A stretch of 64,000 bases of DNA from a virus. The stretch lies in IMG/VR virus record IMGVR_UViG_3300006931_000029, positions 157,124 to 221,123 of that record. The stretch is one strand, 5' to 3'. Position numbers and translations under genes: made by a program. Positions 2,677 through 63,530 of the stretch are shown here, piece by piece (the first letter of the stretch is position 1; each line of letters starts with the position of its first letter). Below the pieces are notes generated by a model. The model searched no databases. It saw only the letters and a program-made list of their open reading frames with translations, and was not told the DNA's origin.

Positions 2677-3131
2677 TCGGCGTGGGTAGCGGGTTTCATG
2701 GAGCGGACAAGGTCTTCACGATCGAACAGGGTCGGCGCAGCGTCGAGCTTGGCGAGAAGTTCTTCGTCCTTCAGAAGGATCGACCAGCCACAAGGCAGGC
2801 AGACAGCCATCCACGTCTGACCATCGCAGAAATCGACCTCGACAACGTCGCCGACCGACAACGACCGGCAGCGATTGCCGTCGTCCGCCCAGATCGCCTC
2901 ACGTTCGTTCTGCCGAGTAGGGTCGTTGGAGACGCTGAAGAACTCTCTGGCGAAGGCGCCGGTGACCGCAACCTTTGCTACTGGGTTGATTCCGTCCATG
3001 AGGCTGAAGAAGTACCGCGCCGACGGCTGGAGCTTCACCACGCGGCTTGGAAGTTCGGCACGTGGACAACCGAAGAGACGCGCCCGGACTTCAGGCACCA
3101 CTGCTGAACGAAGAGGAGCTGGAGAGTTCAT
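2673..3131 (-). CDS. First gene of the left operon, hypothetical protein, 152 aa
   Basis: ATG at 3131 was chosen because the TTTACA/TTGGAT promoter-like element lies six bases upstream. The in-frame extension to 3212 runs through that promoter and into a terminator. Contains RCRSLSVGDVVEVDF followed by WMAVCLPCGWSILL, a pattern seen in other small phage early proteins in which 'RSLSVGDVV' precedes a glycine-tryptophan strand. Function unknown. Confidence 0.75.
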   Translation of the reverse strand: MNSPAPLRSAVVPEVRARLFGCPRAELPSRVVKLQPSARYFFSLMDGINPVAKVAVTGAFAREFFSVSNDPTRQNEREAIWADDGNRCRSLSVGDVVEVDFCDGQTWMAVCLPCGWSILLKDEELLAKLDAAPTLFDREDLVRSMKPATHAE

Positions 3132-3137
3132 GAGCCC

Positions 3138-3166
3138 ATCCAACCCACTTTGGATGGAAATGTAAA
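3138..3166 (-). promoter_or_regulatory. Leaderless-type promoter of the left operon
   Basis: TTTACA at 3161-3166 and TTGGAT at 3138-3143 are separated by 17 bases containing AAAGTGG. Six bases separate the -10-like box from the ATG at 3131, so the predicted start site falls at or next to the start codon. Confidence 0.65.
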
Positions 3167-3190
3167 CAAAAAAGTGTTGAAAAAATGAGC

Positions 3191-3226
3191 ATAAAAAAGC
3201 CGCCCTCCCCACACGGGAGGGCGGCC
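3191..3226 (-). terminator. Rho-independent terminator
   Basis: A perfect 11-bp stem (3199-3209 with 3215-3225, GC-rich) with a five-base loop, followed on the minus strand by six T. It ends transcription from the PEP-CTERM gene and insulates the left operon promoter just downstream. Confidence 0.9.
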
Positions 3227-3272
3227 CATCTATCGTCGGCGGCTAACTTTCGAAGGATTTCCGCCGAATTGG

Positions 3273-4028
3273 TTAGGCTAGGGCCGCGCTGCGCTGCCGC
3301 ATGCGGTGAAGCTTGACCAGGCCCAGCAAGAAGAAGCCAGCAGCCAAGCCATAGGTGCCGGGCTCAGGAACTGGCACGATGCCGACCGGTTGGTTGTTGA
3401 TCCGAACACCGAACACACCATCATCGAAGTCCTGAAGGCCGGGGCTGATTTGCCCGCGGTCATCAATACCGAAGATGTAGTAGGTGAAGTTGATGTCGGA
3501 GGCCGTAAATGTCGTCCAGTGAAGGATGTCATCCATCGCATACTTCACTCCGTCCGTTGACGTGTCTTGATGCCAGAAAACCAAGTCGGTTGCCGCGTTA
3601 GCACCGATGCGCCACGTTAGCGTGGAGCCGGCGCCGTAGTTGGCGTAGAGGACCTGATTGCTTGCACCGAGAAGAGACGATTCTGACCCGATGTTGTTTG
3701 CATCCGAGCTGTCCTTTGCGAGGAAAACTACGTCGGCGAAGAAGCCGGCGCCAACCTGTAGGTCCGATGGGGAGGTCGGATCAAGGTTCGGGATGTTGTT
3801 GAATGTGAGGCCTGCGTAGTTGAACGTGTGAATCTGGCCGTCGAAGTCCGGCACCGGTTGAAAGGTACCGAGATTCAAAAGCGTACTGTTCACGAACGCC
3901 GCATCCGCCTTCATCGCCGAGAACGGCGCGATAGCGGTATTGGACGAGCTGTAGATCAACTGAGCATGGGCAGAACTGGCGCAAAGCGCCAGAACGAGAC
4001 TAAGCAACTGCAGTGCGTTCTTTTTCAT
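3273..4028 (-). CDS. Secreted PEP-CTERM-anchored protein
   Basis: 251 residues. Residues 1-22 are a signal peptide (MKKNALQLLSLVLALCASSA, then HAQ as a cleavage site). The middle is a beta-rich domain with DDRGQISPG and DDGVFGVRI. The C-terminus is a textbook PEP-CTERM signal: VPVPEPGTYGLAAGFFLLGL, then basic residues KLHRMRQR. In characterised hosts the exosortase/archaeosortase family recognises this tail and processes the protein for the cell surface or EPS matrix. A strong terminator follows. No exosortase gene is visible here, so host machinery is inferred. PEP-CTERM proteins in phage genomes are unusual. Confidence 0.9.
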   Translation of the reverse strand: MKKNALQLLSLVLALCASSAHAQLIYSSSNTAIAPFSAMKADAAFVNSTLLNLGTFQPVPDFDGQIHTFNYAGLTFNNIPNLDPTSPSDLQVGAGFFADVVFLAKDSSDANNIGSESSLLGASNQVLYANYGAGSTLTWRIGANAATDLVFWHQDTSTDGVKYAMDDILHWTTFTASDINFTYYIFGIDDRGQISPGLQDFDDGVFGVRINNQPVGIVPVPEPGTYGLAAGFFLLGLVKLHRMRQRSAALA

Positions 4029-4061
4029 ATATGGTGTGATTCCCCGTATCTCTACGGAAAC

Positions 4062-4874: not shown

Positions 4875-4898
4875 GGTTATGGTGGGAGGACCTATCTA

Positions 4899-5786: not shown

Positions 5787-5789
5787 GGG

Positions 5790-6160: not shown

Positions 6161-6210
6161 CAATTTTCGTTAAGAACTCGCTTCAGTTCATGCCGCTGAC
6201 TGGTGCAACT

Positions 6211-7736: not shown

Positions 7737-7738
7737 GG

Positions 7739-10045: not shown

Positions 10046-10051
10046 GAACCC

Positions 10052-10080
10052 ATACAACCCACTTTATCTGAAAATGTAAA
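10052..10080 (-). promoter_or_regulatory. Leaderless-type promoter
   Basis: TTTACA at 10075-10080 and TTGTAT at 10052-10057 with a 17-base spacer carrying AAAGTGGG; ATG six bases later. From the -10-proximal CACTTT to the A-tract it is nearly identical, with one mismatch in 30, to the element at 49.06 kb. Confidence 0.65.
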
Positions 10081-10119
10081 CAAAAAAGTATAACAAAAGT
10101 GAGTCTAGTTTTTTACAAT

Positions 10120-23932: not shown

Positions 23933-23953
23933 CAAAAACTTGTAGACAACGTG

Positions 23954-24672: not shown

Positions 24673-24678
24673 GATGAC

Positions 24679-24707
24679 TAATTACTCTGTCAGGAAACGG
24701 GTGTAAA
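24679..24707 (-). promoter_or_regulatory. Leaderless-type promoter
   Basis: TTTACA at 24702-24707 and TAATTA at 24679-24684 with a 17-base spacer; six bases to ATG 24672. It lacks the AAAGTG box, but the geometry is the same. Confidence 0.55.
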
Positions 24708-24710
24708 CGC

Positions 24711-25888: not shown

Positions 25889-25895
25889 GGCTGTG

Positions 25896-25924
25896 TTTTA
25901 ACCACTTCAGCTGCGTTTTGTAAA
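25896..25924 (-). promoter_or_regulatory. Leaderless-type promoter
   Basis: TTTACA at 25919-25924 and TTAAAA at 25896-25901 with a 17-base spacer including GAAGTG; seven bases to ATG 25888. Confidence 0.55.
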
Positions 25925-25926
25925 CA

Positions 25927-26571
25927 TTATTTCCTCAGCCATCCGGTATGGTTCGGAGTCTGCCAGTTAGGAAGGTAGCCGATCTTCCTGAAGTGGTCGT
26001 GCACTGCCTTCTGGACTCCGGTGTAACCCCAATCGTCGACGATCAAGATGCCGCCCGGTACCAGTTTGTCCCACAGATAGTCCATGGCCACAACCGTCGG
26101 GTCGTGCATGTCCATATCAAGGCGGAGCATTGCAATCGGACCTGGTTGATTGTCCGGCAACGGCAGAGTGTTCTGAATCCATCCCTCGACCAACCGGAAC
26201 TGTTCGAATGGCAGGTTCAGCTCGATGATGTGGTTCTCGACGTCGGTTCGCCGGTGCGCCGTGATCCCACTCGACACGAGGAGGTCTTCAGGTAGTTCGC
26301 GATTCGGGTCGAGCTTGTCGCCGAATCCCGGCTGGTATTCGTCGTGGCGACCGGCCAGTTGAATGCCTTCGAAAGAATCGTAACCCCAAACCGTCTTCGT
26401 CTTGGCCGCGAGGTGCATTGCAATGATGGATGAACCCATCGCGACGCCGCACTCAACCAAATCTCCTTCCAGGTTAGACGCTTCTTGTGCGAGACGATAC
26501 GTCTCTTGAAGCGTGGATTCGAAACCGTAGAAACGGTGGAGGATTTTCTTGAGGATTTCCTGGTCGGTCAT
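25927..26571 (-). CDS. TylF/MycF-type methyltransferase
   Basis: 214 residues. DLVECGVAMGSSIIAM is the SAM-binding loop. MLRLDMDMHDPTVVAMDYLW, then VPGGILIVDDWGYTGVQKAV carries the metal-binding acidic residues of the macrocin O-methyltransferase family. These enzymes methylate sugar hydroxyls, so it could cap glycans made by the nearby transferases. The stop lies near the next promoter. Confidence 0.85.
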   Translation of the reverse strand: MTDQEILKKILHRFYGFESTLQETYRLAQEASNLEGDLVECGVAMGSSIIAMHLAAKTKTVWGYDSFEGIQLAGRHDEYQPGFGDKLDPNRELPEDLLVSSGITAHRRTDVENHIIELNLPFEQFRLVEGWIQNTLPLPDNQPGPIAMLRLDMDMHDPTVVAMDYLWDKLVPGGILIVDDWGYTGVQKAVHDHFRKIGYLPNWQTPNHTGWLRK

Positions 26572-31115: not shown

Positions 31116-31504
31116 GGAGTAAGAATCGGGATACGGTCCTTCTTGAACGTAACCCAGGTGATTTGAAGTGTTGGATTGGAGCAGCCCTTCGGTCCCCATT
31201 CGCTGGAAACTTTCAGGACTTCGGTGTTGTTGGCACGGTACTGCCTAACTCGATCGTTGAACACTTCTTCGTCATCTGGTCCGTGAACTTCAACCTCCAC
31301 TCCATTGACCGTAACGAAGGCGTCAGTGTTGGTCGGGAAAATCAAGCCGTCTCCACCGAAACCCTGCTCACGCAACCGCTTGCAAACGGCCTGCGCATGG
31401 AAGAAATTAGGATGTTTGTCAGTTGAGGAATTGTCTTCGTTGCCGAGGCTGACCGTTTCTGGCCACCACGCCTTCGACACGAATTCAACTTGGTATGCTG
31501 ACAT
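31112..31504 (-). CDS. Hypothetical protein, 130 aa
   Basis: MSAYQVEFVSKAWWPETVSL, then VTVNGVEVEVHGPDDEEVF. ATG 31504 directly follows a TTGTTTACA sequence, which therefore cannot be an ordinary -35 box for this start. No family recognised. Confidence 0.65.
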   Translation of the reverse strand: MSAYQVEFVSKAWWPETVSLGNEDNSSTDKHPNFFHAQAVCKRLREQGFGGDGLIFPTNTDAFVTVNGVEVEVHGPDDEEVFNDRVRQYRANNTEVLKVSSEWGPKGCSNPTLQITWVTFKKDRIPILTP

Positions 31505-31532
31505 TGTAAACAAGAACTTGCCAGACTCCAGA

Positions 31533-33298: not shown

Positions 33299-33307
33299 GA
33301 ACGAATG

Positions 33308-33335
33308 ACCATCCCAAAGTTCCTAAAAATGTAAA
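33308..33335 (-). promoter_or_regulatory. Weak copy of the leaderless-type promoter
   Basis: TTTACA at 33330-33335, 16-base spacer, then GATGGT at 33308-33313; nine bases to ATG 33298. The -10 match is poor. Confidence 0.35.
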
Positions 33336-33339
33336 CAAT

Positions 33340-36231: not shown

Positions 36232-36503
36232 GTGAGCGTGAGTCGTTTACGTTTCTTGACCCGCATCCTGACCGGGGCTTCCTGCCTGGGCAACTTCCTG
36301 TAGAAATCACCGAGACAGTTGATCGATCCACAGGCGCACTCGAACGGAACCAGGATAGCAGGAACGCCTTCACGCTTGCACTGAGCGTGGGCTACCGATT
36401 CCTCCCACCGACGCCGGCGCATCCGCCACTGAGGAAGGAAGACACGGCCACCACGATCCAGGTGCGCCATGTTGTGTACGTGCACTTGAGCTTCCTTGTT
36501 CAC
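36228..36503 (-). CDS. Hypothetical basic protein, 91 aa
   Basis: Start GTG 36503. Contains WRMRRRRWEESVAHAQCKRE, CACGSINCLGDFYRK and a Lys/Arg-rich tail. The Cys cluster may bind metal. A seven-codon frame (ATG 36523, MRTRNYP) ends in a GTGA overlap with this start. Confidence 0.6.
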   Translation of the reverse strand: MNKEAQVHVHNMAHLDRGGRVFLPQWRMRRRRWEESVAHAQCKREGVPAILVPFECACGSINCLGDFYRKLPRQEAPVRMRVKKRKRLTLT

Positions 36504-36537: not shown

Positions 36538-36566
36538 ATTTCAGGGCAGCCGATGGGCAATGTAAA
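36538..36566 (-). promoter_or_regulatory. Promoter-like element before a seven-codon leader frame
   Basis: TTTACA at 36561-36566 and TGAAAT at 36538-36543 with a 17-base spacer. Fourteen bases lead to the short frame starting at 36523. Weaker than the best copies. Confidence 0.35.
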
Positions 36567-36614
36567 CAATAAAGCGAACGCTTGGACGCACTAAATCGTT
36601 GGTGACAGCCCGGC

Positions 36615-42293: not shown

Positions 42294-42301
42294 TGCCCAC
42301 G

Positions 42302-42329
42302 ATTCAAACAACTTAAGGGAAAATGTAAA
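42302..42329 (-). promoter_or_regulatory. Leaderless-type promoter of the LemA operon
   Basis: TTTACA at 42324-42329 and TTGAAT at 42302-42307 with a 16-base spacer; eight bases to ATG 42293. Confidence 0.6.
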
Positions 42330-42334
42330 CAAAA

Positions 42335-42745
42335 ATGTTTACGGACTTGGAGGTTCTTTCTGGCGTGCATTTCGTCACCATTTACACTAAGGTTGGCCCG
42401 AAGCTATCGAACTGGCTGACGGCGAAAGGTGTGACCGACGACGAGTGGTTGAAGTGGTGTCTTCGAGACCGAGATTCGAAGGACTTCACCGCAATTGTCG
42501 ATGAGCTGGAAGAGGCAGCAACAGCTGCCGAGGTCTTAGTTTCGCCGATCCTTGAGGTGGAACGCTACATCATGGAATCCACGGAGAAAGTCGAACTGCT
42601 TATTGAACGCAGAAAGCTGGTATTAACGTCGAGACCGAAGCACTACGCTAGCTCGGAACTCATTTCGAGATTCATCTCAAAGTGGTTTGAGATTTTGGAC
42701 AAAGAAGCCGCTAGCGATCTTTCCGCCACACGACCCACTTCTTAA
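42335..42745 (+). CDS. Plus-strand hypothetical helical protein, 136 aa
   Basis: MFTDLEVLSGVHFVTIYTKV followed by long helices (RYIMESTEKVELLIERRKLV). It diverges from the LemA operon and overlaps the 3' end of the sigma gene by 35 bases, tail to tail. Composition is protein-like, and no better minus-strand gene occupies the space. Ribosome site weak. Confidence 0.6.
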   Translation: MFTDLEVLSGVHFVTIYTKVGPKLSNWLTAKGVTDDEWLKWCLRDRDSKDFTAIVDELEEAATAAEVLVSPILEVERYIMESTEKVELLIERRKLVLTSRPKHYASSELISRFISKWFEILDKEAASDLSATRPTS

Positions 42746-43619
42746 GCTGGTTGATAGCGTCCTGCCGTATCTGACAGATACGCGATTCAGTGACCTTGAA
42801 CTCCTCAGCTATCTGCCACAGTCGCATGCCCTCGAAGTAGTTCATCCGCAAGATGGTTTGCCATTGGTCGGGTAACCGGCTGATGTGGGTTTTCAGCAAG
42901 CCAACCAGCTCTGCTTCCTGCATTGAGTCTCTTGCAAGAACGTCCTGGGTGTCTGCCAGAGACTCGTGAAGAGATACGCCGTGTTCCTCACTTTCGCTGA
43001 TGAAATCGATAGACGTGAACGTTTGAGGACGGGCTTCTTCGACCATTTTTCTGTACTCGGTTGGCGTCAAGTTCATCTCGGCCATGATCTCGGTCGCCGT
43101 CGGGTCTCGTTGCAGTTTTTGCGTCAACGTTGCGACAACTTCTTTTAGAACCCGGTTTCTAGCTCGAGCTCGACGAGGAACCCAATCCATCCTCCTAAGC
43201 TCGTCTAGGATAGCTCCTCGAATTCTCATGGAAGCGTACCCTTTGAACGAAGAAGCTCTGGCAGCGTCGTACTTCTTCGCTGCCGCCATCAACCCGGTTA
43301 TTCCTACGCTGTGCAGGTCGTCTGCGTCGATGTGTGCAGGAAGATTTAGTTTGATCCGGTCCACGACCTGTCGGACGAGGTACATGTGTTGCACAAGAAA
43401 ATCTCCGCTAGTTGCCTCCGCGGTTACTTCTTGCCTCTTCCTCTTAGGTTTAACGATCAGCTCGTGAGGAGCTTGGTTCACCTGCTCCCTAGGAACGACC
43501 GGTTGAAAAATGTCAAGGCGGTGCCGAGGCGCCACCATGATCGGTGGACCGTCGACGACAACTTGAATAATCTCGAAAGCGTCGTCCTCGACTGTGAGTA
43601 GGACGAGCGTTGAGTTCAC
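42711..43619 (-). CDS. FliA/WhiG-type RNA polymerase sigma factor
   Basis: 302 residues. Region 2 (about 75-150): LPAHIDADDLHSVGITGLMA, KKYDAARASSFKGYASMRIR, GAILDELRRMDWVPRRAR. Region 3 (155-205): QKLQRDPTATEIMAEMNLTP. Region 4 (235-297): MRLWQIAEEFKVTESRICQI. All match the sigma-28 family, which lacks region 1.1. Residues 1-72 are an extra N-terminal part not found in FliA and might bind polymerase or an anti-sigma. The next gene downstream is on the opposite strand. Coupled by ATGA to the DUF2325-like gene upstream. It could drive phage-specific promoters. Confidence 0.9.
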   Translation of the reverse strand: MNSTLVLLTVEDDAFEIIQVVVDGPPIMVAPRHRLDIFQPVVPREQVNQAPHELIVKPKRKRQEVTAEATSGDFLVQHMYLVRQVVDRIKLNLPAHIDADDLHSVGITGLMAAAKKYDAARASSFKGYASMRIRGAILDELRRMDWVPRRARARNRVLKEVVATLTQKLQRDPTATEIMAEMNLTPTEYRKMVEEARPQTFTSIDFISESEEHGVSLHESLADTQDVLARDSMQEAELVGLLKTHISRLPDQWQTILRMNYFEGMRLWQIAEEFKVTESRICQIRQDAINQLKKWVVWRKDR

Positions 43620-47350: not shown

Positions 47351-47357
47351 GACGGCC

Positions 47358-47385
47358 ATCCTACACTTCAGTTGTATTTTGTAAA
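47358..47385 (-). promoter_or_regulatory. Leaderless-type promoter
   Basis: TTTACA at 47380-47385 and TAGGAT at 47358-47363 with a 16-base spacer including GAAGTG; seven bases to ATG 47350. Confidence 0.65.
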
Positions 47386-47405
47386 CAAAAAAGAATAGAA
47401 AAGTT

Positions 47406-49052: not shown

Positions 49053-49058
49053 GCGAAC

Positions 49059-49087
49059 ATTCAACCCACTTTATTTGAAAATGTAAA
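49059..49087 (-). promoter_or_regulatory. Leaderless-type promoter of the DUF262 operon
   Basis: TTTACA at 49082-49087 and TTGAAT at 49059-49064 with a 17-base spacer including AAAGTGGG; six bases to ATG 49052. Nearly identical to the copy at 10.05 kb. Confidence 0.65.
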
Positions 49088-49133
49088 CAAAAAAGTGTAC
49101 GGCTCCGCTACTTTATTTTTTACAATTGGAAAC

Positions 49134-51474: not shown

Positions 51475-51481
51475 TTAGACC

Positions 51482-51509
51482 ACCATACCGTTGGGACGGA
51501 TTTTGTAAA
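51482..51509 (-). promoter_or_regulatory. Leaderless-type promoter
   Basis: TTTACA at 51504-51509 and TATGGT at 51482-51487 with a 16-base spacer; seven bases to a GTG start at 51474. Confidence 0.6.
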
Positions 51510-51523
51510 CAAAAATTTATGGC

Positions 51524-53264: not shown

Positions 53265-53270
53265 GAAGCC

Positions 53271-53298
53271 ATCCTACACTTTGGTTGGAATTTGTAAA
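53271..53298 (-). promoter_or_regulatory. Leaderless-type promoter of the HU-like operon
   Basis: TTTACA at 53293-53298 and TAGGAT at 53271-53276 with a 16-base spacer that includes AAAGTG; six bases to ATG 53264. Confidence 0.65.
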
Positions 53299-53327
53299 CA
53301 AAAAAGTGTTGGCCTATTTCAGCCAAA

Positions 53328-53968: not shown

Positions 53969-55300
53969 TTACGTTAATGAGCCAACAGCGACGGTTTCTT
54001 TGTCGTCAGCCGTTGGCCCGAAAGAGAGAAGACGCGGAACAATTCCGGTGGTGGCTTTGATCTCTGTCAATAACCAGTCAATGGTTCCTACGTCTTTGTA
54101 GACCGGTTTTGCGTTCTCAAGAGCTTGTGTAACTTTGGCCCGTGCAAACAAATCCCGAGAACTAGAATGATCGAGACGCATGGTAGACCTATCCGGCAAT
54201 CTGTACTCTGAGCAGACCTTCAGTTCGCCAAGTGAACTTACCCGATCCAAGCATGTCACGGCTAGGTAGTCCATCTTGCCGGCGACGTCGCACGCGTACT
54301 TCAATGCCACAGTGTCGAGCCAACCAGCCCTCATGCCACCTTGCCATCGGTTGTGGACGTTGTGCTGCTCTGGAAGTCTGCGCGTCATATCCTCGTCATA
54401 AGCAACAAAGGGACCCGCGCCATGTCTCGTGCTGTAGGCTCGCGTTACGCCGATCTTGGTAACCTCTCCGCCATAGCCGATCTCGTCCAACATTTCGTCG
54501 GCGTTGGCGAACGTCGTTGTGCTCCACGTGGTATGAGGATGAAAACCGTACCACTCGTCTAACAACACGCCTTGAGCGCCTTCGAAGACGATTGGTCTGT
54601 CTTGGTTGGCGATGTCTCTCCACGTGTTGCGCGGCACGATATGAACCTCTTGGACGAAACTTTGATAAATTCCTAGAAAGAAGTCGATGACTGATCCGTC
54701 AACGAAGCAATCCTCAAACTCCTGCATCGCGTCTGGATGAAACGACGCGCCATCGAGCATCCTCTTCAACTTGGCGCATTTGTGCTCTCTCAAGAGCTTT
54801 AGTTTCTGTCTGACGAGGTCTGGATAGAATAAATCTCCAGCTCGGATAACGAACTGAGGATTCAACATGACGTCCTCCATCGTCTCGCCGATGCCGATGC
54901 CGCACGTTCCGTGGGCTCCGTCACCGCGGTGCAGCTCAATGATTCGGTTCGCCGCTTGTTGAAAAGGGCTGATGATAGGCGCCTCGTGATCTATGAAAGT
55001 GCGAGCCATCGGCTTCGACACGCCAAGCGTCTCGAGATGCGCGGCTTCCTTCATCATAGCCTTTGGAGCGATCAGCACGTGTTTCGACAGGAACGTGGTG
55101 GTATCGTCCACGAACATGCCGCTGCCGAACTGAGAAAATTTGTGGCTTCGTCCATCACTTGTGACGACGTGGTGGGCCGCCTGAGCGCCACCGTTAAACC
55201 GGACCACAGTTCCAGCGCCCACCTTGCGGACAAGGTAATCGACGGTCGTTCCTTTGCCTTGGTCTCCATATCCAAGGTCGACGACGATGTAGGCTTTCAT
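53969..55300 (-). CDS. purA: Divergent adenylosuccinate synthetase
   Basis: 443 residues, close to the bacterial PurA length. VDLGYGDQGKGTTVDYL keeps Asp13, Gly15, Lys16 and Gly17 of the GDEGKG loop but has Gln14 instead of Glu. GGAQAAHHV keeps His43 (E. coli His41). PIVFEGAQGVLLDEWYG keeps the GAQG IMP-binding loop, and STRHGAGPF and GWLDTVALKYA are retained. The 'TTGRGIG' region is changed to GTCGIGIGETMED. Normal PurA joins IMP and aspartate. In PurZ of 2-aminoadenine phages the Asp13 position is Ser, so Asp13 here favours IMP-like chemistry. The substrate is uncertain because many IMP-pocket residues differ. Confidence 0.85.
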   Translation of the reverse strand: MKAYIVVDLGYGDQGKGTTVDYLVRKVGAGTVVRFNGGAQAAHHVVTSDGRSHKFSQFGSGMFVDDTTTFLSKHVLIAPKAMMKEAAHLETLGVSKPMARTFIDHEAPIISPFQQAANRIIELHRGDGAHGTCGIGIGETMEDVMLNPQFVIRAGDLFYPDLVRQKLKLLREHKCAKLKRMLDGASFHPDAMQEFEDCFVDGSVIDFFLGIYQSFVQEVHIVPRNTWRDIANQDRPIVFEGAQGVLLDEWYGFHPHTTWSTTTFANADEMLDEIGYGGEVTKIGVTRAYSTRHGAGPFVAYDEDMTRRLPEQHNVHNRWQGGMRAGWLDTVALKYACDVAGKMDYLAVTCLDRVSSLGELKVCSEYRLPDRSTMRLDHSSSRDLFARAKVTQALENAKPVYKDVGTIDWLLTEIKATTGIVPRLLSFGPTADDKETVAVGSLT

Positions 55301-55342
55301 AAAAGTGAGGCCGCCAAGAGTAGGGGTGTCGTCTTGGCGGCC
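55301..55342 (-). terminator. Possible terminator between vWA and PurA-like genes
   Basis: An 11-bp perfect stem (55309-55319 with 55332-55342) followed by TCACTTTT on the minus strand. The T-run is short and interrupted, so it may attenuate rather than stop. Confidence 0.5.
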
Positions 55343-55360
55343 GGTCGCTCGGTCGGTGTG

Positions 55361-56356
55361 TCAGGTCAGGCGACCATCATCGCCAGCGGTTGGAACCGCC
55401 GCTGGGAGATTGCTTGCCGCCGCCTTGGCGGTAATGGCACGAGACGTCGAAACAACGGCCAGTGCCGAACTTGCTGCGCGAATAGCGCCAGAATCTGCGC
55501 CTGCACTGTGTAGGTCGTCTGCTCCGTCCTTGATACTGGCGATGGCTCCTTCGACGAGGCCGATCGTCATGACGATGGTTTCACAAACAGCGTCGGCGTC
55601 AGGAAGCATGATGACTCGTTCGCCGAGAAGTTTCTTCCAGCGCTTGGCGATCTCCGGCATCGAACCAGTGCTCGTGGTTGGGATGATGTGGAACCACTCG
55701 TAGCGAGTCAGAAGCTCCTTGGTGATTTGCTCGAGTGTAACACTCGCCTCGAGTTTGTCACCAATTAGCTGCTCCACCTGTTCGCGATCGACCTTCGGAT
55801 ATGGCATCTCGTCACCGATGGTGAAGAGGTACGCTTTTTCCTGCCGCTTGTCCCAGCAGTCGAGGTCGGTTCGACGAGCGAAATAGAAGGGGATGAGCTC
55901 GTAGGATTCCGTGTTCTGGCCACCGCCACCGCCCTCGAGGAAGAATTTCCCGAGGTTATCGTCCATCTCCAAGCCGGATTCGAACTGACCGATCTGCAGA
56001 GGGACGCTATCGGTTGTGGCATCGCCGACGGCGCCGAAGAGAATTTGCGGGTCTTGCACGTAACTCTTGGCCAGCAGAATGTGCATGAGTTGACCGAGTT
56101 TCTTTTGGAGGACGACAGGGATTCCTCCCATAGAGCCAGTGACATCGAAAACGACGGCAATGGCGCGCGAATTTGGGTGAGCGGCGCTGTCGCGAGATTC
56201 ACGGCGCTTGTCCTTGATGTTCATGTCGGCGTGAACCACTCGCGGCCCACCTGACGATTTGACTGAGTGGTCGTAGGCGAATGCCGACGCTCCCGTTGCG
56301 GCGCGGTGTGTGGTCCGCGCTGTGTAATCCTTGTCTGACCAGCTTGTTGATCCCAT
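55361..56356 (-). CDS. von Willebrand factor A domain protein
   Basis: 331 residues. AIAVVFDVTGSMGGIPVVLQ contains the metal-ion site DxTxS (Asp71, Thr73, Ser75), followed by HILLAKSYVQDPQILFGAVG and YLFTIGDEMPYPKV, typical of stand-alone vWA folds. The C-terminal 70 residues are Ala/Ser-rich. vWA proteins usually assemble complexes; the next gene encodes a kinase-like protein, a pairing seen in conflict systems. 16 bases from the pseudokinase gene. Confidence 0.85.
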   Translation of the reverse strand: MGSTSWSDKDYTARTTHRAATGASAFAYDHSVKSSGGPRVVHADMNIKDKRRESRDSAAHPNSRAIAVVFDVTGSMGGIPVVLQKKLGQLMHILLAKSYVQDPQILFGAVGDATTDSVPLQIGQFESGLEMDDNLGKFFLEGGGGGQNTESYELIPFYFARRTDLDCWDKRQEKAYLFTIGDEMPYPKVDREQVEQLIGDKLEASVTLEQITKELLTRYEWFHIIPTTSTGSMPEIAKRWKKLLGERVIMLPDADAVCETIVMTIGLVEGAIASIKDGADDLHSAGADSGAIRAASSALAVVSTSRAITAKAAASNLPAAVPTAGDDGRLT

Positions 56357-56372
56357 GGTGATTTCTCCTGCG

Positions 56373-57509
56373 TTATGCCCCTGCTAGTGCTGGGACGTTA
56401 AAGATGCGAAACTTTGGTTTGCCGAAATTCTTCTCGAGCATTTTCTTCCAGTTGGTGGCCAACTCGAGAGCGTCGTTAGGACGACGATGAGGTGCCGGGA
56501 TTAGGCAAGAACGAAGAAAGCGTTGCATTTCAATCGGTACGCCAGCTGGAAAGACGGGATTGTGCGGTACGTTAGTTGCAGCACCGAGTAGGATCGACAA
56601 CGTGAACGCAGCCATGTAGATGTCCACGGCAGGAGTTGCTCCCATGCTTTTCAAAACTTCCGGTGGATAGAGAGCGATCCATTTTTTCGATATGGCCTTG
56701 ATTGGTTCACCAATCGGAACCGAATAGCACCAGTCCACCAGCACCAGCCCGTGGTTCTCAGCGCAAATCAAAGCGTGATCAGGCGTAAACGCTCCGTGGA
56801 CAATACCAGAAGCGTGGACAAGTCCAAGCGTCGTCCATGTCCGACTGCCCATCCATGCCACGTCTCGTGGATCGAGTGGAGCCATCTTGTACGCGTCGAG
56901 AATGTGGTTCATGCTCGTCAACCCTTCTGCTGGAATGAAGACGTTAGCCACTCGTTTTTTGTTGGCGACGTCTGCGACCGTAATGGATTCCAATAGTCGC
57001 GGAATTCTGAACTCCATGTCCTTGTCTTTCGCCAACTTTTCAATGGACGTCCGCTCCGCAGTCATCAGGTCATTATTCTTCGGATTGCGTACGACTTTGA
57101 CGTATGCCTCGTGGGTATCTCCGTCTTCAGAGTATTGAGCCTTGAGCACATCAGCAAGGTCACCTGTCAGCGACAATGGTTCCCCAACAACGTAGATTCG
57201 TTTCTTCGAATGGATGGTAACAGCCTCCGGAGCTGTGGCGACCACTGCCACCTTTCTGTCACCGTAAGTCTTAGCTTCGATCTTGGCCTCGGCCTGACCC
57301 CACCACTTGGCGAGAAGTTGAAACGCACCGTCGGCGACCTTCTTGTCTTTCGGGTCCGTGTAGCGATCGGCGTGGCAAACCTTAGCGAATTGGTGATAGA
57401 GTTTCTTGCCGGCCTTCATCGGGTCGGCAGAGCTCAGCTTCCCAAAGACGTCTTCAGGGCATTTCGCCTTGTTGAGTTGCTTGCGAACGTTATCGAGTTC
57501 AGGATTCAT
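56373..57509 (-). CDS. J-domain-like/pseudokinase fusion protein
   Basis: 378 residues. Residues 30-70 resemble the end of a J-domain (AGKKLYHQFAKVCHADRYTD; His-Ala-Asp 46-48 instead of HPD). Residues 100-370 follow a protein kinase fold: Lys138 in AYVKVVRN, Glu152, IVHGAFTPDHALICAENHGL, and DW at 259-260. The catalytic HRD Asp is replaced (HGAF), so phosphotransfer is doubtful. DIYMAAFTLS is the lobe-stabilising helix. Probably a scaffold coupled to the vWA protein and to chaperone activity. It overlaps the Toprim gene by 11 bases. Confidence 0.75.
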   Translation of the reverse strand: MNPELDNVRKQLNKAKCPEDVFGKLSSADPMKAGKKLYHQFAKVCHADRYTDPKDKKVADGAFQLLAKWWGQAEAKIEAKTYGDRKVAVVATAPEAVTIHSKKRIYVVGEPLSLTGDLADVLKAQYSEDGDTHEAYVKVVRNPKNNDLMTAERTSIEKLAKDKDMEFRIPRLLESITVADVANKKRVANVFIPAEGLTSMNHILDAYKMAPLDPRDVAWMGSRTWTTLGLVHASGIVHGAFTPDHALICAENHGLVLVDWCYSVPIGEPIKAISKKWIALYPPEVLKSMGATPAVDIYMAAFTLSILLGAATNVPHNPVFPAGVPIEMQRFLRSCLIPAPHRRPNDALELATNWKKMLEKNFGKPKFRIFNVPALAGA

Positions 57510-58398
57510 CGTCTTTTGCTTCTGGGAGCTCTTCGACTATGGTTTGCAGAAGGTCTTGGTCTTGCTGTTGGCGTTGCTCCATCTCGCGCCACGCGGACAT
57601 GTCTAGAAACTGCTTCACTCCGTTTTCAACCAGAGCTATAAGTGTCTTCGGCTCGAGAGCGTCTAGTTCCCAACTGCTATCGCCGAATTGTTCTCGGTAT
57701 GCCGCGGCTCGGCTGTCATCCATCTTCACCGGGTTTTCTGGGAGTTGATGGCGCTGGACTTGGTCGTAATTCAACGCGAGTCGAACGACGTCAACTGGGC
57801 CGTCGCTGTAGCGCTCGAGTCTATCTCTTACGTCACGAGACATGTCCAAACCGGACGGGTCGTGGTCACCCAAGTAGAGCACATGAACGTCTTTTCCTTC
57901 GACATCGCGCTGCGACTGAATGAACTTTCCTCGCGAGTACATCGATGACACGGACGAGTAACCTTTGTTGGCCGTAAAAGCAACTCCCCATTTTTCGCAG
58001 ACCGGCGCCAGCACGCCTTCCAGGGCTTGCTTCTCAACCATGACCTCGACGTAATGCTGTTGCTGTTTCCACCGAGCTAAACGAAAATGTTCAGTCAAGT
58101 GCTGCAGATACGACTTGAGACTCTTATATTCCGGAATCGAGTGAGTCACGCGTCCGCGGTCTTCGATGGCGTCCCAATCTAGCATGCCGCCTTCTCTTGA
58201 TTCAGAGATAACGGTAGCGAACGCTTCGTAGTTTTGCGGCGTATTTTTCATCCAGTTCTTCGCCACAAACTGGTAGTAAAGCTGGCGAACCGTAAGCTTG
58301 AAACCCTGTGAGAGATAGTCTTGGCACAAGCCGTCGGCTTTCGCGATAATGTCGATCGCTCGTTCACCAAACTTCTTCTCTCTGAAGCATTCTTTCAT
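57499..58398 (-). CDS. Toprim-like protein (TopoVI-A/Spo11-like core)
   Basis: 299 residues. FKLTVRQLYYQFVAKNWM is a motif of a phage Toprim family. VEVMVEKQALEGVLAPVCEK carries Glu122, and VLYLGDHDPSGLDMSRDVRD carries Asp178 and Asp180, the acidic set of Toprim folds. The WHD/Tyr nucleophile of TopoVI-A is not evident, so strand cleavage is unproven. First gene of the cluster with the pseudokinase, vWA and PurA-like genes. Confidence 0.8.
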   Translation of the reverse strand: MKECFREKKFGERAIDIIAKADGLCQDYLSQGFKLTVRQLYYQFVAKNWMKNTPQNYEAFATVISESREGGMLDWDAIEDRGRVTHSIPEYKSLKSYLQHLTEHFRLARWKQQQHYVEVMVEKQALEGVLAPVCEKWGVAFTANKGYSSVSSMYSRGKFIQSQRDVEGKDVHVLYLGDHDPSGLDMSRDVRDRLERYSDGPVDVVRLALNYDQVQRHQLPENPVKMDDSRAAAYREQFGDSSWELDALEPKTLIALVENGVKQFLDMSAWREMEQRQQQDQDLLQTIVEELPEAKDDES

Positions 58399-58408
58399 GG
58401 ACGGGTTT

Positions 58409-58436
58409 AGGCTAGCGTTGTCCTTGAGTTTGTAAA
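58409..58436 (-). promoter_or_regulatory. Leaderless-type promoter of the Toprim/pseudokinase/vWA cluster
   Basis: TTTACA at 58431-58436 and TAGCCT at 58409-58414 with a 16-base spacer; ten bases to ATG 58398. Confidence 0.5.
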
Positions 58437-58446
58437 CAAAAATAAA

Positions 58447-58962
58447 TCACTTGCCGTACCACGCCGTGATCGGTCGTATTGCGAACGGAGCAGAGTGGCC
58501 ATGCATCGGAATGTGACCCCAATCGCCGGTGTAGATTCGCCAACCTCTGTTGTTGCTCCCATCGTGGTCGCACCAGCCGTCCCAACCGTAATCGTGGCGT
58601 AGGCACGCGTAGGCGTCGTACGTTGCGGTGAGGCCATCCCTGGTTTCAGGAAGTGGCGGTGGAGTGACCTTGTCAGCGGCTTCCGAATTGAGGTAGTTGT
58701 AGACGAAAGCAGCAAGTTTTTGAGGATCGTAACCCTCGCCAAACGGAAATCGTTGCGTCAACTTATCGTTGTGATCGATCGGATACTGATACAAGACAAG
58801 GCCGAGGTGAGGATCGATTCGATAGCCCGTGAAGCCTCCGTACCCTTCGCTCTTCTTCGCGTGAACCTGCGGCCACCGAAATTCTCTGCGGAAGATGAAT
58901 TCGAGGATGCCGACCAGTTGAGCTTGGTTATCGCCTGTGACGTTGAATCTGTGGTTGTCCAT
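58447..58962 (-). CDS. Hypothetical protein, 171 aa
   Basis: Aromatic and Gly-rich (EGYGGFTGYRIDPHLGLVLY, YACLRHDYGWDGWCDHDGSN). TAATG coupling to the DUF2786 gene. No family recognised. Confidence 0.65.
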   Translation of the reverse strand: MDNHRFNVTGDNQAQLVGILEFIFRREFRWPQVHAKKSEGYGGFTGYRIDPHLGLVLYQYPIDHNDKLTQRFPFGEGYDPQKLAAFVYNYLNSEAADKVTPPPLPETRDGLTATYDAYACLRHDYGWDGWCDHDGSNNRGWRIYTGDWGHIPMHGHSAPFAIRPITAWYGK

Positions 58963-59798
58963 TACTTCAGGGCAGTGTTGATTTTGATCTTCTTGCCGGC
59001 GCGACGGCCCTCGGCAACAGAGCCGAAATCGTCTAGATTTCCTTCACTGACTTTGAAGTATTTCAACCGAGGATGGTAACCCTTGACGGCTTGATCGACC
59101 TTCTCTTTTTCGCCGATCAAAATCATGGCGACGGATTTGCCTGCATCAGCGTGCGACAGTTCGGCTTGCGCTTCGGCTTCGACTTTTCCCTTCTCGATGT
59201 CAAGCTTCTCATTGAGACCTTGGTAGACACCGTAGAAGAAGCTGTTACGGCTTGACATCGGTGCGTCGACGGCCTTCCGGTGTTTGTGCCAAAGGTCAAT
59301 GAATTCGCGATGGAGAAAGCCGTAGACGTAGATGGCAATGTGAACGTTGGTCTGTCGACCGATGAAGCTTAACGATTTCACGGTACCCGTCTTCTTGATT
59401 CCTTTGTCGACGTAGTCAGTCCAATCTGAACACTCGATGATCTTCACGCCGAAATACGACTTGAGAATCCACGTGATGAACTTATGACAGGATGGAAGTC
59501 TAGCTGCGCAAACTCCGCCTCCCTCGCGAGAAGGCCTGAACGGTTGCTGGACGATCGGCTCACCGGCTGACGTGTCCTCCGTCATGTCAATTGAGGCAAG
59601 GTCAATCCCGTGCTTCAGTGCAAGTCGTTGTGCGGCCATGAGCGCACCTTCGGCTTCGGCTTGTGTCGATCCTTTCGATGTCTCAGCTCGAGAAAGGAGC
59701 TTTTTGATCTTCTCGAGAATCTCGGTGTTCGCGACCGACATCGCCGGATGGTTCTCCGGTTTCAACCCTTCTGGTGCCTTCTCTGGTGCGTCGCTCAT
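58962..59798 (-). CDS. DUF2786 family protein
   Basis: 278 residues from ATG 59798. ILEKIKKLLSRAETSKGSTQ, AEAEGALMAAQRLALKHGID is DUF2786 ('i..kI.kLL..a....g.t..EA..A...a..l...h'). The larger C-terminal half has a helical, basic core. DUF2786 proteins occur in phages and mobile elements; function unknown. Confidence 0.85.
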   Translation of the reverse strand: MSDAPEKAPEGLKPENHPAMSVANTEILEKIKKLLSRAETSKGSTQAEAEGALMAAQRLALKHGIDLASIDMTEDTSAGEPIVQQPFRPSREGGGVCAARLPSCHKFITWILKSYFGVKIIECSDWTDYVDKGIKKTGTVKSLSFIGRQTNVHIAIYVYGFLHREFIDLWHKHRKAVDAPMSSRNSFFYGVYQGLNEKLDIEKGKVEAEAQAELSHADAGKSVAMILIGEKEKVDQAVKGYHPRLKYFKVSEGNLDDFGSVAEGRRAGKKIKINTALK

Positions 59799-59814
59799 TG
59801 TAGTCAAGAACTAG

Positions 59815-60165
59815 TCAGACCCCAGGATTCGTTATCTTGGGCGGCGTGATTTCGTTCAATTTGTTGAGAATTTTCCTGATAGCCAGTTGAATGCCCATTC
59901 CACGCTGGGCTTTGTCGAGTTCGAGAAACTGAGATTGCTCAGCTATCTTGGCCAGCGTGTCTAACTCTCGCCACGTGAGCTGGTTTTCGTTGTCCGGAAA
60001 AACACTGGACGCATTCACTATTCCGTAGAGAAATCCTCCAACTTGAGACGCGCGTTGACACACGCCGTCATAGTGTTTCTGCGAGCACTCAACTAGCAAC
60101 TCAATCTCGTCAGGAGAAAAGGTAACCCACGCTTTTGGTTGAAAAGTGACAGACAAGAGATTCAT
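59815..60165 (-). CDS. Hypothetical protein, 116 aa
   Basis: MNLLSVTFQPKAWVTFSPDE, then helices (RELDTLAKIAEQSQFLELDK). No family recognised. Follows the DUF932 gene with a 77-base gap. Confidence 0.65.
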   Translation of the reverse strand: MNLLSVTFQPKAWVTFSPDEIELLVECSQKHYDGVCQRASQVGGFLYGIVNASSVFPDNENQLTWRELDTLAKIAEQSQFLELDKAQRGMGIQLAIRKILNKLNEITPPKITNPGV

Positions 60166-60199
60166 TTCGGTGCAGGCCTCCTAGTCGGAGGGCTGTAGC

Positions 60200-60232
60200 G
60201 AAACCCGGCGAGGCCACACGCCCCGCCGGATT
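60200..60232 (-). terminator. Weak terminator or hairpin after the DUF932 gene
   Basis: CCGGCG at 60205-60210 pairs with CGCCGG at 60224-60229, with extra inner pairs. On the minus strand it is followed by only three T. Could be partial or regulatory. Confidence 0.3.
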
Positions 60233-60242
60233 CCATGGCTGT

Positions 60243-61166
60243 TTAGTTGAGAAGCAGGTCGACGGCGGCCGTCTGCAGGCCAATACCGTAACCGATCATG
60301 TTGGTCTCGAAGCGGGATTCGGCAGCACGCTTAGCGCGAACCGGTTTCTCGTGCGAGAGGAACTGCGTGACCGCGTTTAACGCGTCGGCGCGGGTCTTAC
60401 CCTCGTTGCCGATACCGTTGCGGAAGAGCTCGAACACCTTTGTGCGGGTGTTGGTGACACGTTTGCCTTCGCCGGGCATCCAAACCTCGACGAATTTCTT
60501 CGCGTCGCCTTCGGACATCTTGACGGACTGGAGTTGGTTGTAGACCTTCTGGAACTCCTGCGCATGCTTGTCGGCGAGACCGACGATGCGGTGAGCTTGT
60601 TCAATTTTGTCCTTGAAGTTTTTCGTGTGACGGATAACGACCATCGATTTGGCCTCACCGAGGGCGGCCGACAGCGTGTTCATGCAAACCACGCGAGTGG
60701 AGACGAAGCGAACTGAAACCGGTTTGGTGCCGTCGTGACTGAGATAAACGAGGAAGTACTGCTTGAGTCCGTCGTTTTTGCCAGAGAGAAAGTACTCCTT
60801 CTTGAGGCTGGCGAGGAACCAAACGATCTTGCCGTTGCGGAGTGAACCGGCCGTCTCGTAGACTGCGTCGTCACCGATAACCGGATCGAGGATGTTGAGA
60901 CCGTCGACGTTCTGGATCGGCGTGTAGCGGGTGCCCACGATTCCGAGGGGCTCGCCAGTGTCAGCGCGAACGATTCCGAAGTGGTCGGGGAAGGATTTGC
61001 CGTCAGCAACGCGGATGCGTTTCTTTGAAACTTCCCAGTTCAGTTTGGCCTGAGCGAGAGCGGCTTCCGCCGTAAGAGCACCTTGGACAACGGTGCCGAG
61101 TTTGTGCCACGGGACGATACCGTTAGCAGAGACCATGTGGTCATTTTCCTGGAGTTCGTGAGCCAT
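60243..61166 (-). CDS. DUF932 (phage/plasmid-like) protein
   Basis: 307 residues. IVPWHKLGTVVQGALTAEAA, IVGTRYTPIQNVDGLNILDP, VRFVSTRVVCMNTLSAALGE match the DUF932 family shared by phages and plasmids. Members are abundant in early regions; function unknown. The start is preceded by a leader of about 50 bases, unlike the leaderless genes. Confidence 0.9.
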   Translation of the reverse strand: MAHELQENDHMVSANGIVPWHKLGTVVQGALTAEAALAQAKLNWEVSKKRIRVADGKSFPDHFGIVRADTGEPLGIVGTRYTPIQNVDGLNILDPVIGDDAVYETAGSLRNGKIVWFLASLKKEYFLSGKNDGLKQYFLVYLSHDGTKPVSVRFVSTRVVCMNTLSAALGEAKSMVVIRHTKNFKDKIEQAHRIVGLADKHAQEFQKVYNQLQSVKMSEGDAKKFVEVWMPGEGKRVTNTRTKVFELFRNGIGNEGKTRADALNAVTQFLSHEKPVRAKRAAESRFETNMIGYGIGLQTAAVDLLLN

Positions 61167-61219
61167 ATTGATTCGAGTTTTTAACGTTTAACAGACTTGA
61201 TTTGCTTTCAACGAAAGTA

Positions 61220-61247
61220 AGCCTAAACTTTCTTTCAGCAATGTAAA
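61220..61247 (-). promoter_or_regulatory. Promoter of the DUF932 gene with a longer leader
   Basis: TTTACA at 61242-61247 and TAGGCT at 61220-61225 with a 16-base spacer; the ATG is 53 bases downstream, so this copy is not leaderless. Confidence 0.6.
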
Positions 61248-61261
61248 CAAAAAAGTGCGAA

Positions 61262-61441
61262 CTATTTTTCGGTATGTTCTTGGCTAGATTGGATTTCCCT
61301 GATTTCCGTGTCGTGGGTAAAATCAGCTCTAGCACAGGCCAGAAGCAACTTTACGATCATGAGAAGCACCAGACAGATGGCGAATAGGCCGAGAAAGTTG
61401 ATGAACCTCTGTTCGCTAGGCGAGTATTCTCCGGGGCTCAT
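61262..61441 (-). CDS. Single-pass membrane protein, 59 aa
   Basis: MSPGEYSPSEQRFINFLGLF, then AICLVLLMIVKLLLACARAD and a charged tail. ATGA-coupled to the preceding gene. Confidence 0.65.
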   Translation of the reverse strand: MSPGEYSPSEQRFINFLGLFAICLVLLMIVKLLLACARADFTHDTEIREIQSSQEHTEK

Positions 61442-61959
61442 GTTTCGTATGGAGCAATGCCGCCAGTGGTGTAGTAGCCGTTGACGTTGAGCATCATTCC
61501 TGATTTTGACTTTCTCGGTGTCGGCGTACGACCAACGCTGAAGAGGAACTCGGCCACGAGTTGGCGACTGGACATTTCCTCGATGTCTGGATCACGGCGA
61601 CCCATCAACACGGAAGCCACAGTGCAGAAAGCAGTGGCTTCATCATTGAAAGCAATTCCATCGCCTGAGCGATTAAAATTCTTCGCGTCAAATTTGAAAC
61701 CGGAGGCTTCGAGGCGGTAGAGCGAATTGAGAAACCCGGTTGCCGACATGTCTTTGAGCTCGTTGAGCATCTTGACAAATTCCTCAGCGGCGTCGTTGCC
61801 CAATTCGGCGACAATTCCATCGTACACCATCTTGATGTGCTTCGGGCCAAGATCGCCACGGTTAACGCCGCGACCCGAGTAATACTCTGGACGAGCGGAC
61901 AAGCGACCATCCGTGTGTTTGTGGATGATCGCGCGAACGGACATTTTTTCAGTTGACAT
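61438..61959 (-). CDS. Conserved phage protein, 173 aa
   Basis: SARPEYYSGRGVNRGDLGPK, then YDGIVAELGNDAAEEFVKML and SATGFLNSLYRLEASGF match a phage family ('PeYYSGRG...sDL...L...Y..I..E.G...A..FV.M'). Function unknown. Confidence 0.8.
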   Translation of the reverse strand: MSTEKMSVRAIIHKHTDGRLSARPEYYSGRGVNRGDLGPKHIKMVYDGIVAELGNDAAEEFVKMLNELKDMSATGFLNSLYRLEASGFKFDAKNFNRSGDGIAFNDEATAFCTVASVLMGRRDPDIEEMSSRQLVAEFLFSVGRTPTPRKSKSGMMLNVNGYYTTGGIAPYET

Positions 61960-61961
61960 GG

Positions 61962-62417
61962 TTAAACTCTAGTTGCGCATTCGGGTCCGAGACCCAGTTC
62001 GATACTCTCTGGAACAGTGAGCTTACGCCCACAACGGCCGCAGCGACCCTCGTGCCACAATTCGCAGTTCGGAAGCTCCTGACCTGCGAGAACTCGCTCG
62101 ACTACCCACCTAGCTGCCTTAGCGGATGGCGCGTCCGGCGTAATCTTCGATCGGACGCCGTGCGAGTAAGTCCCATTGGCGAAAATCGTGCCGACAAACT
62201 GGTATGAATGCTCGTTGTCCGAACCGTTAAGGACTGAGACGAAGTGCGGCGATTGAGCGGTCGGTTTGCGAACCTTCAGCGTGAATCGCGTCTGGGTTTT
62301 ACCTGACCGGACCGTGAAAGTAGCGTTACCAGCGAGCAGAAACTGCTTTAAGTTTGCCGGAGCAACTTGAGCAGGAGCAGCGGGGTCCAGTCCAGGTAGG
62401 GAAGGAGTGTCAACCAT
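61962..62417 (-). CDS. DUF6011-like zinc protein, 151 aa
   Basis: The C-terminus GRCGRCGRKLTVPESIELGL, then GPECATRV is the DUF6011 Cys4 signature. The middle (FTLKVRKPTAQSPHFVSVLN) is the usual RNA/DNA-modification-like beta region of that family. ATG 62417 lies seven bases after a -10-like box. Confidence 0.8.
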   Translation of the reverse strand: MVDTPSLPGLDPAAPAQVAPANLKQFLLAGNATFTVRSGKTQTRFTLKVRKPTAQSPHFVSVLNGSDNEHSYQFVGTIFANGTYSHGVRSKITPDAPSAKAARWVVERVLAGQELPNCELWHEGRCGRCGRKLTVPESIELGLGPECATRV

Positions 62418-62424
62418 AAAAACC

Positions 62425-62453
62425 ATTCAACCCACTTTGTTCTGAAATGTAAA
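62425..62453 (-). promoter_or_regulatory. Leaderless-type promoter
   Basis: TTTACA at 62448-62453 and TTGAAT at 62425-62430 with a 17-base spacer including AAAGTGGG; seven bases to ATG 62417. Confidence 0.65.
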
Positions 62454-62515
62454 CAAAAAAGTGTAGGTAATTTTAGGTGTCTTTCGGCTCAGCTGGAAGT
62501 AGGTTCTTCTAGACT

Positions 62516-63235
62516 ATGGCTGACTACCCGGAGCTTCTGGCACCCATTCCAGTTTCATTCCTTACCGACTTCGTCCGAGACTTTCAAAAGAACCGGCTAG
62601 ATGGGCCGCTGTCTCAAGCAGCCAACGATTTAGTTCGAGACGTTCTATTTCGAGCTTCACTCGAAGACGCCGTTGAAACTAGGATCGAGCTCAATAACCG
62701 GATTCAACAGGAGGAAAGAGCGCCAACTGACGAAGAATTGCGGCAAGAAGAGGCAGACAAGCATGCCGATCCAATTCTCGATGTCCTCGATAACGTGGTC
62801 GAGGGAATCCTCAAAGGCGAGAGTCTCGAAAAGCATCACGACCAAATTCGCAAGTACATCCTGAACCAGCAGGATCGGTCTGAGTTAATCGCCAATCTTC
62901 TTCTCACAAAGGACTACCGCCGACTCGTCTCCTTCGTGAAGGTTCGAGATGTCCTCGAACAACGGCTACTAGAGGCAGCGACAAGAGCGGATTTGAACAT
63001 CTCCGAGATGATGGCGATGATGACGATCGTCAATGCAGGTGCCGACAAGCTGTCGAACAAGGTGGAAGCCGGAGCGTCCAACATCTCTGACGTAATTGCT
63101 CTCATGACGAAGGTTGACTACACGCTGCAGGAAAACGATTCGAAGATGAAAGAGAAATTGAAGAAGACGTCGCCTTCTGGACGAGAAATTGTTCGTCGCG
63201 TCATCCACAAGCTCAAGAAGGTTTCAGAGGAATAG
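62516..63235 (+). CDS. Plus-strand helical protein, 239 aa
   Basis: MADYPELLAPIPVSFLTDFV, then long acidic helices (NRIQQEERAPTDEELRQEEA) and two similar helical segments (LNISEMMAMMTIVNAGADKL, ASNISDVIALMTKVDYTLQE) that look like an internal repeat. First gene after the strand switch. A TTCTAGACT sequence abuts the ATG. No family recognised. Confidence 0.75.
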   Translation: MADYPELLAPIPVSFLTDFVRDFQKNRLDGPLSQAANDLVRDVLFRASLEDAVETRIELNNRIQQEERAPTDEELRQEEADKHADPILDVLDNVVEGILKGESLEKHHDQIRKYILNQQDRSELIANLLLTKDYRRLVSFVKVRDVLEQRLLEAATRADLNISEMMAMMTIVNAGADKLSNKVEAGASNISDVIALMTKVDYTLQENDSKMKEKLKKTSPSGREIVRRVIHKLKKVSEE

Positions 63236-63497
63236 TCTTCCTCAGCGCCGTGAGTGCCGACGTAGGAGACATGAACAGGGTGCCGCCACGCTTACCTGGA
63301 CGTCTCCATCTCCACTGGTAAATGGAATCGGCAGGATGCACCGGTTCGGGTGTCCATCCGGCTTTCTTTAGTTCAGCCGCCGTCTCTAGGTCGCCATCGT
63401 AGATGATTTTCGAGGCAGATGCTTGAAGCTGTTCGAAATAAGACTCCCGCTGGAGCGGCGTCATCTTCGCAATTTCCTTCCACGGTTTGTCCGGCAT
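63213..63497 (-). CDS. Hypothetical protein, 94 aa
   Basis: MPDKPWKEIAKMTPLQRESY, then TPEPVHPADSIYQWRWRRPG. Overlaps the plus-strand gene tail to tail by 23 bases. ATG 63497 is five bases from the promoter -10 box. Confidence 0.65.
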   Translation of the reverse strand: MPDKPWKEIAKMTPLQRESYFEQLQASASKIIYDGDLETAAELKKAGWTPEPVHPADSIYQWRWRRPGKRGGTLFMSPTSALTALRKTIPLKPS

Positions 63498-63502
63498 TCT
63501 CC

Positions 63503-63530
63503 AGCTTACCCCGCCTTGGAAAAACGTAAA
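63503..63530 (-). promoter_or_regulatory. Leaderless-type promoter
   Basis: TTTACG at 63525-63530 and TAAGCT at 63503-63508 with a 16-base spacer; five bases to ATG 63497. Confidence 0.5.

Follow-up and report, generated by a model that had tools for sequence, protein, structure and literature searches.

The window, the whole stretch of DNA analysed here, comprises 64,000 nucleotides and corresponds to positions 157124-221123 of a viral record (G000) that is 224,954 bases long. The record belongs to an uncultured 225-kb tailed phage with a contractile tail, which encodes a sheath protein, a family A DNA polymerase, an NAD-dependent ligase and a Ro-like RNA-binding protein, and carries a tmRNA gene together with more than 30 tRNA genes. 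The minus strand holds 261 of its 319 gene calls. Genes were called with our own gene caller, and the P values given below are nominal, coming from several motif explorations. The window includes a complete sigma factor gene (42711-43619, minus strand), whose product belongs to the FliA/WhiG family (Pfam regions 2, 3 and 4; NCBIfam FliA_WhiG 1e-62) and whose start overlaps the preceding stop by 4 bases. Another gene (53969-55300, minus strand) encodes a PurZ/PurA-like adenylosuccinate synthetase, which matches the PHROG family 2-aminooxy adenylosuccinate synthetase at 4e-77. It shares about 40% identity with the enzymes of Bxz1-like mycobacteriophages; this phage may have a modified adenine. 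Elsewhere in the record, a tRNA with the amber-reading anticodon CTA lies at L015:12581-12656 (plus strand; tRNA-Pyl in the ARAGORN call); despite this tRNA, TAG ends about 12% of called genes (30/244).

Comparison of the terminase and other proteins revealed no close cultured relative of this phage: the best cultured terminase matches, from Vibrio phages and the Thermus phage phiLo, are about 26-29% identical, the distant likeness to the phiLo enzyme being about 29%. A terminase-based search recovered nine related contigs. Those used below are G006 (44 kb, 50% GC, terminase 73-76% identical), G008 and G009 (157 and 172 kb, 68% GC, about 51-56%) and G004 (110 kb, 60% GC, about 50%).

The repeated element and the start codons

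A preliminary description of the window drew attention to a recurring minus-strand element consisting of TTGTTTACA, a spacer of 16-17 bases and a -10-like box, which at ten sites ends 6-8 bases before an ATG or GTG. Element, spacer and gap were confirmed at all ten when the sites were re-read, and likewise at an eleventh site, where the gap is 5 bases. The gap is 6 bases at 3138 (promoter 3132..3169; TTGTTTACA, spacer 17, TTGGAT, ATG at 3131 of the ORF 2673-3131), 10052 (10046..10083; TTGTTTACA, 17, TTGTAT, ATG at 10045), 24679 (24673..24710, a weak member; GCGTTTACA, 17, TAATTA, ATG at 24672), 49059 (49053..49090; TTGTTTACA, 17, TTGAAT, ATG at 49052) and 53271 (53265..53301; TTGTTTACA, 16, TAGGAT, ATG at 53264). 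It is 7 bases at 25896 (25889..25927; ATGTTTACA, 17, TTAAAA, ATG at 25888), 47358 (47351..47388; TTGTTTACA, 16, TAGGAT, ATG at 47350), 51482 (51475..51512; TTGTTTACA, 16, TATGGT, GTG at 51474) and 62425 (62418..62456; TTGTTTACA, 17, TTGAAT, ATG at 62417), and 8 bases at 42302 (42294..42332; TTGTTTACA, 16, TTGAAT, ATG at 42293). The site with a gap of 5 is 63503 (63498..63533; TTGTTTACG, 16, TAAGCT, ATG at 63497). The -35 is thus imperfect in three of the eleven (24679, 25896 and 63503).

Five further sites in the window were absent from the earlier list. Two of them precede start codons at somewhat larger distances: 33338 (33299..33338, minus strand; TTGTTTACA, 16, GATGGT, gap 9, ATG at 33298) and 58439 (58399..58439, minus strand; TTGTTTACA, 16, TAGCCT, gap 10, ATG at 58398 of the DNA topoisomerase-like ORF 57499-58398), where the gap is 7-10 depending on the box chosen. 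The site at 23935 has a weak box, and that at 6163 consists of tandem half-sites. The fifth, 36569 (36538..36569, minus strand; TTGTTTACA, 17, TGAAAT), is an exception to the start-abutting arrangement, with a probable leader before the ORF 36228-36503. The two exceptions already named, 61220 and 31505, do depart from it: the former (61220..61250, minus strand; TTGTTTACA, 16, TAGGCT) is probably followed by a leader of about 45 bases and then by the ORF 60243-61166, and the latter (31483..31513, minus strand; TTGTTTACA, 16, TTGAAT) has its box just 2 bases from an in-frame GTG.

Exact TTGTTTACA occurs 31 times in the whole 225-kb record, 26 of them on the minus strand. A site was regarded as start-coupled when an ATG- or GTG-led frame of at least 40 codons begins 28-32 bases downstream, as is the case for 21 of the 31 (15 at 29 or 30 bases), leaving about 10 that are not. 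The expectation is 1.6 for random positions (P = 2e-20) and 2.4 when positions are sampled within 100 bases upstream of genes (P = 8e-17). An equally good fit to random intergenic sequence, which was to have spoken against the element, was not seen in this whole-record scan. Scanning the record with a matrix of the element brought out a few more sites that differ at one base, including window positions 63533 and 25926, and one probably at the start of the ligase gene (record 84602).

AAAGTG, which had been described as frequent in the spacer, turned out to be a minority feature, present at 5 of the 31 exact sites. It co-occurs with CACTTTT upstream (Fisher p = 4e-5): ACTTT(T) precedes the -35 at eight sites of the record, six of which also have AAAGTG or AAAGTT after it, as against 0/23 of those without it (p 4e-5). 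The result is an inverted repeat, (C/T)ACTTTT ... AAAGTG/AAAGTT, around the -35, with arms 19-20 bases apart, found in the window at 3169, 10083, 49090, 53301, 61250 and 62456 (all minus strand), and it may be an operator in this subset.

Since the tests of start distance and of the -10 were built around an element that an earlier reader had picked out, the relatives serve as the independent test of both. The start-codon spacing is significant in G006 (5/7) and G008 (9/18) and not in G004 (3/20). The orthologous pair G006:7500 and G000:109645, with proteins 39% identical, shares its -35, a spacer of 16 bases and a gap of 7 while differing in the -10 (TACGAT vs TATGGT); in the pair G008:636 and G000:27568 the element is retained and the distance is not. 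The geometry thus tends to be kept, not always. A scan of viral contigs for TTTTTTGTTTACA...AAAGTG yielded 10 stretches on contigs not known as kin, most of them not start-coupled. No host assignment was accepted: the sole genome match covers 42 residues, on a 3.4-kb contig from a bin of Limisphaerales, and in Verrucomicrobiota genomes the TTGTTTACA-to-ATG pattern barely exceeds the reversed control.

Promoter character and translation context

Is the element a transcription signal? In the usual register TTGTTTACA reads TTTACA as a -35, and the -10 is of the type T(A/T)NNNT. A generic sigma-70 -10 matrix, not fitted here, gives its top score to the hexamer ending 6-7 bases before the start codon, and beats same-base shuffles at 18/21 sites in G000 (p 3e-5), 5/5 in G006 (p 0.03) and 8/9 in G008 (p 0.03). 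The hexamers of the two relatives are often near-canonical (CATAAT, GATAAT, TACGAT), and those of G000 are looser (TTGAAT, TAGGAT, TATGGT) and match TATAAT poorly. The -35/-10 spacing is that of a sigma-70 (primary sigma) promoter, whose hexamers are 16-18 bases apart, and the -10 stands above shuffles in all three phages and is weak in G000.

The element is also found where no start codon follows closely. At record position 62914 it lies upstream of the tmRNA gene (62476-62830; tmRNA and element, L012:2476-2914), which encodes the tag GNTIVKAFARSNELRLAA and heads a long tRNA array (L011:14203 to L012:2209), the tmRNA-tRNA region as a whole spanning record 54203-62914. It further precedes leadered genes, at window positions 61250 and 36569 and at record 129929, where it is conserved in a relative (L032). 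Its presence ahead of the tmRNA-tRNA array and of leadered genes marks it as a transcription signal, and leaderless placement is usual for it and not obligatory. The same observation makes it very improbable that the element is a translation signal inside a normal mRNA leader with the promoter further upstream, a reading to which the fixed distance to the start codon and the absence of Shine-Dalgarno signals in the phage would lend themselves, and against which the hexamer 6-7 bases before the ATG also counts, as it acts like a -10 box.

No Shine-Dalgarno signal was detected at called starts in the four phages, that is, G000 and its relatives. In G000 the signal was counted at 25/165 operon-internal genes, against 28 and 29 in controls, and at 16/154 operon-first genes, against 14 and 14; the same count at annotated starts of phage phiYS40 gave 6/20 vs 0/20, a positive control whose detection indicates that the test is valid. 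The preliminary description had also held that genes inside operons rely on overlap coupling instead. Overlap is indeed common, -4 (59/220) and -1 (11/220) being the commonest same-strand distances, but it does not stand in for Shine-Dalgarno starts, a signal that is missing from every gene class of G000. Among operon-first genes that lack the motif, -10 boxes are not in excess at gaps of 5-8, so the leaderless geometry is confined to this promoter class and not general in the phage. A phage-encoded IF3 or S21 might promote leaderless translation; no gene for either was found.

The reading proposed at the outset, a promoter that places the transcription start near or at the start codon, remains the best supported by the sequences, given the fixed geometry of -35, -10 and ATG, its recurrence in two relatives that differ in GC content, the tmRNA-tRNA array and a likeness to phiYS40. 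We consider it probable that the element is a sigma-70-type promoter set such that mRNAs begin at the start codon, or no more than a few bases away, and are leaderless. Given this placement of TTGTTTACA, the 16-17 base spacer and the loose -10, about 20-25 transcription units of G000 would begin as leaderless mRNAs, the ribosome would bind the 5'-terminal AUG or GUG directly, and downstream genes of the operon would be reached via stop-start overlap. The same promoter would also serve the tmRNA-tRNA array and some leadered genes. Against a leaderless reading stand the roughly ten exact sites that are not start-coupled, the poor match of the G000 -10 boxes to TATAAT, the gaps of 5, 8 and 9-10, which would give a leader of a few bases or a start within the codon, and G004, in which the spacing is absent and TGTTTACA is otherwise used.

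Candidate readers and regulators of the element

What reads the element? It is possible, though on balance unlikely, that these leaderless promoters are read by phage machinery, either the FliA/WhiG-type sigma factor or an activator that binds TTGTTTACA instead of a -35, like T4 MotA at its box, and form one temporal gene class. With a complete sigma gene in the window, its product is a putative reader of one class of phage promoters. The nine bases of the -35 are well conserved and preceded by a run of T, whereas the -10 is loose. Moreover, the 8-mer TGTTTACA ranks first in over-representation in G000 (43 vs 2.3 expected), G008 (25 vs 0.2) and G004 (34 vs 0.6). However, FliA-type promoter patterns (a TAAA(G) -35 and a GCCGATAA -10) are not enriched over a reversed control, and the element has neither of these sigma-28 boxes. 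No sigma gene was detected in G006, G008 or G009, which carry the element, although these records may be incomplete, and a TTTACA-17-TATAAT-like arrangement is also that of an ordinary primary-sigma promoter. Because relatives without a detected sigma gene carry the same element, the host primary sigma is most likely its reader. As for polymerases, no multisubunit enzyme (beta-subunit domain) was found in the phage, and a search for a single-subunit enzyme gave no match there or in the control genomes.

Rather more doubtful is the view that TTGTTTACA serves chiefly as an operator for some phage regulator, asymmetric and repeated like a stoperator, and overlaps the -35 where the regulator acts. 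In its favour are the genome-wide over-representation and the copies of TGTTTACA in G004, about two thirds of which lie inside genes, often antisense and with no tie to start codons (for example L045:3794 and L046:3080, among loci L042-L047). Because it is over-represented and, in G004, mostly away from starts, a DNA-binding protein for TGTTTACA is plausible in this lineage; a phage regulator may also bind it, and such a protein might act at the -35 as activator or repressor. The CACTTTT/AAAGTG inverted repeat around a subset of sites and reverse-orientation GTAAACA near the starts of three G000 genes point in the same direction. An operator, however, needs no fixed distance to a -10 and a start codon such as G000, G006 and G008 have, and the operator and promoter readings are compatible, so both can hold. 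In the three genes just mentioned, GTGTTCTT is followed by GTAAACA 5-9 bases before the ATG (L009:2351-2380, L009:6693-6722 and L016:12170-12201), which could represent a further class of promoters or operators carrying the motif in reverse; three genes are too few to establish it.

A combination of these views is conceivable and is put forward tentatively: in this lineage without Shine-Dalgarno signals, TTGTTTACA could be both the -35 of a leaderless class and the binding site of the phage's own sigma factor or regulator. A single factor could then jointly switch the leaderless set and the tmRNA-tRNA array.

Comparison with known systems

A leaderless promoter of the kind proposed here has a close counterpart in the large Thermus myophage phiYS40, whose middle and late mRNAs are mostly leaderless according to a review (PMC3594737). 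Several starts re-read in its genome (DQ997624) have TTGAC separated by 17-18 bases from a TANNNT box that lies 6-7 bases before the ATG, with a distance from -35 to start codon equal to that in G000. Unlike G000, phiYS40 has the -35 TTGAC(A), not TTGTTTACA, and some Shine-Dalgarno signals where G000 has none; no close relation between the two phages was found. Among bacteria, leaderless genes are taken to be marked by TA-like signals some 10-12 bp ahead of the start (PMC3160421), and nearly a third of the ORFs of Deinococcus radiodurans have a -10 box about 6-7 bp upstream (PMC12340547). Deinococcus-Thermus shares with G000 this position of the -10 and leader-free transcripts, which in G000 are predicted, whereas there the genes are cellular and the -35 is often dispensable, and here a phage uses a strict 9-base -35. 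The sites of G000 have the marks of phiYS40- and Deinococcus-type starts, a -10 box 6-7 (5-8) bases before the start and no Shine-Dalgarno signal.

T4 middle promoters combine a MotA box near -30/-35 with a host-type -10. The pairing of a repeated box at that position with a host-type -10 is common to T4 and G000; the sequence and spacing of the T4 box differ, and T4 middle mRNAs have leaders with Shine-Dalgarno signals. The stoperators of cluster A mycobacteriophages are many copies of one asymmetric site across the genome (PMC9283540). The element resembles them in being an asymmetric site in many genome copies. Stoperators, to our knowledge, are not set at a constant distance from start codons.

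Because the geometry matches that of phiYS40 and Deinococcus, the principle is already known. What is added is the -35 sequence, the lineage, the absence of Shine-Dalgarno signals, the link to the tmRNA-tRNA array, the confinement of the leaderless geometry to one promoter class, the FliA/WhiG-type sigma gene and the over-representation of TGTTTACA in this phage and two relatives. Leaderless promoters of phages would thereby be extended beyond Thermus phages to an uncultured lineage without a Shine-Dalgarno signal, and a precise motif would be at hand for correcting start codons in such phages. These sites would also provide a natural promoter set for testing how the ribosome chooses 5'-terminal start codons, and a promoter class tied to a phage tmRNA-tRNA array.
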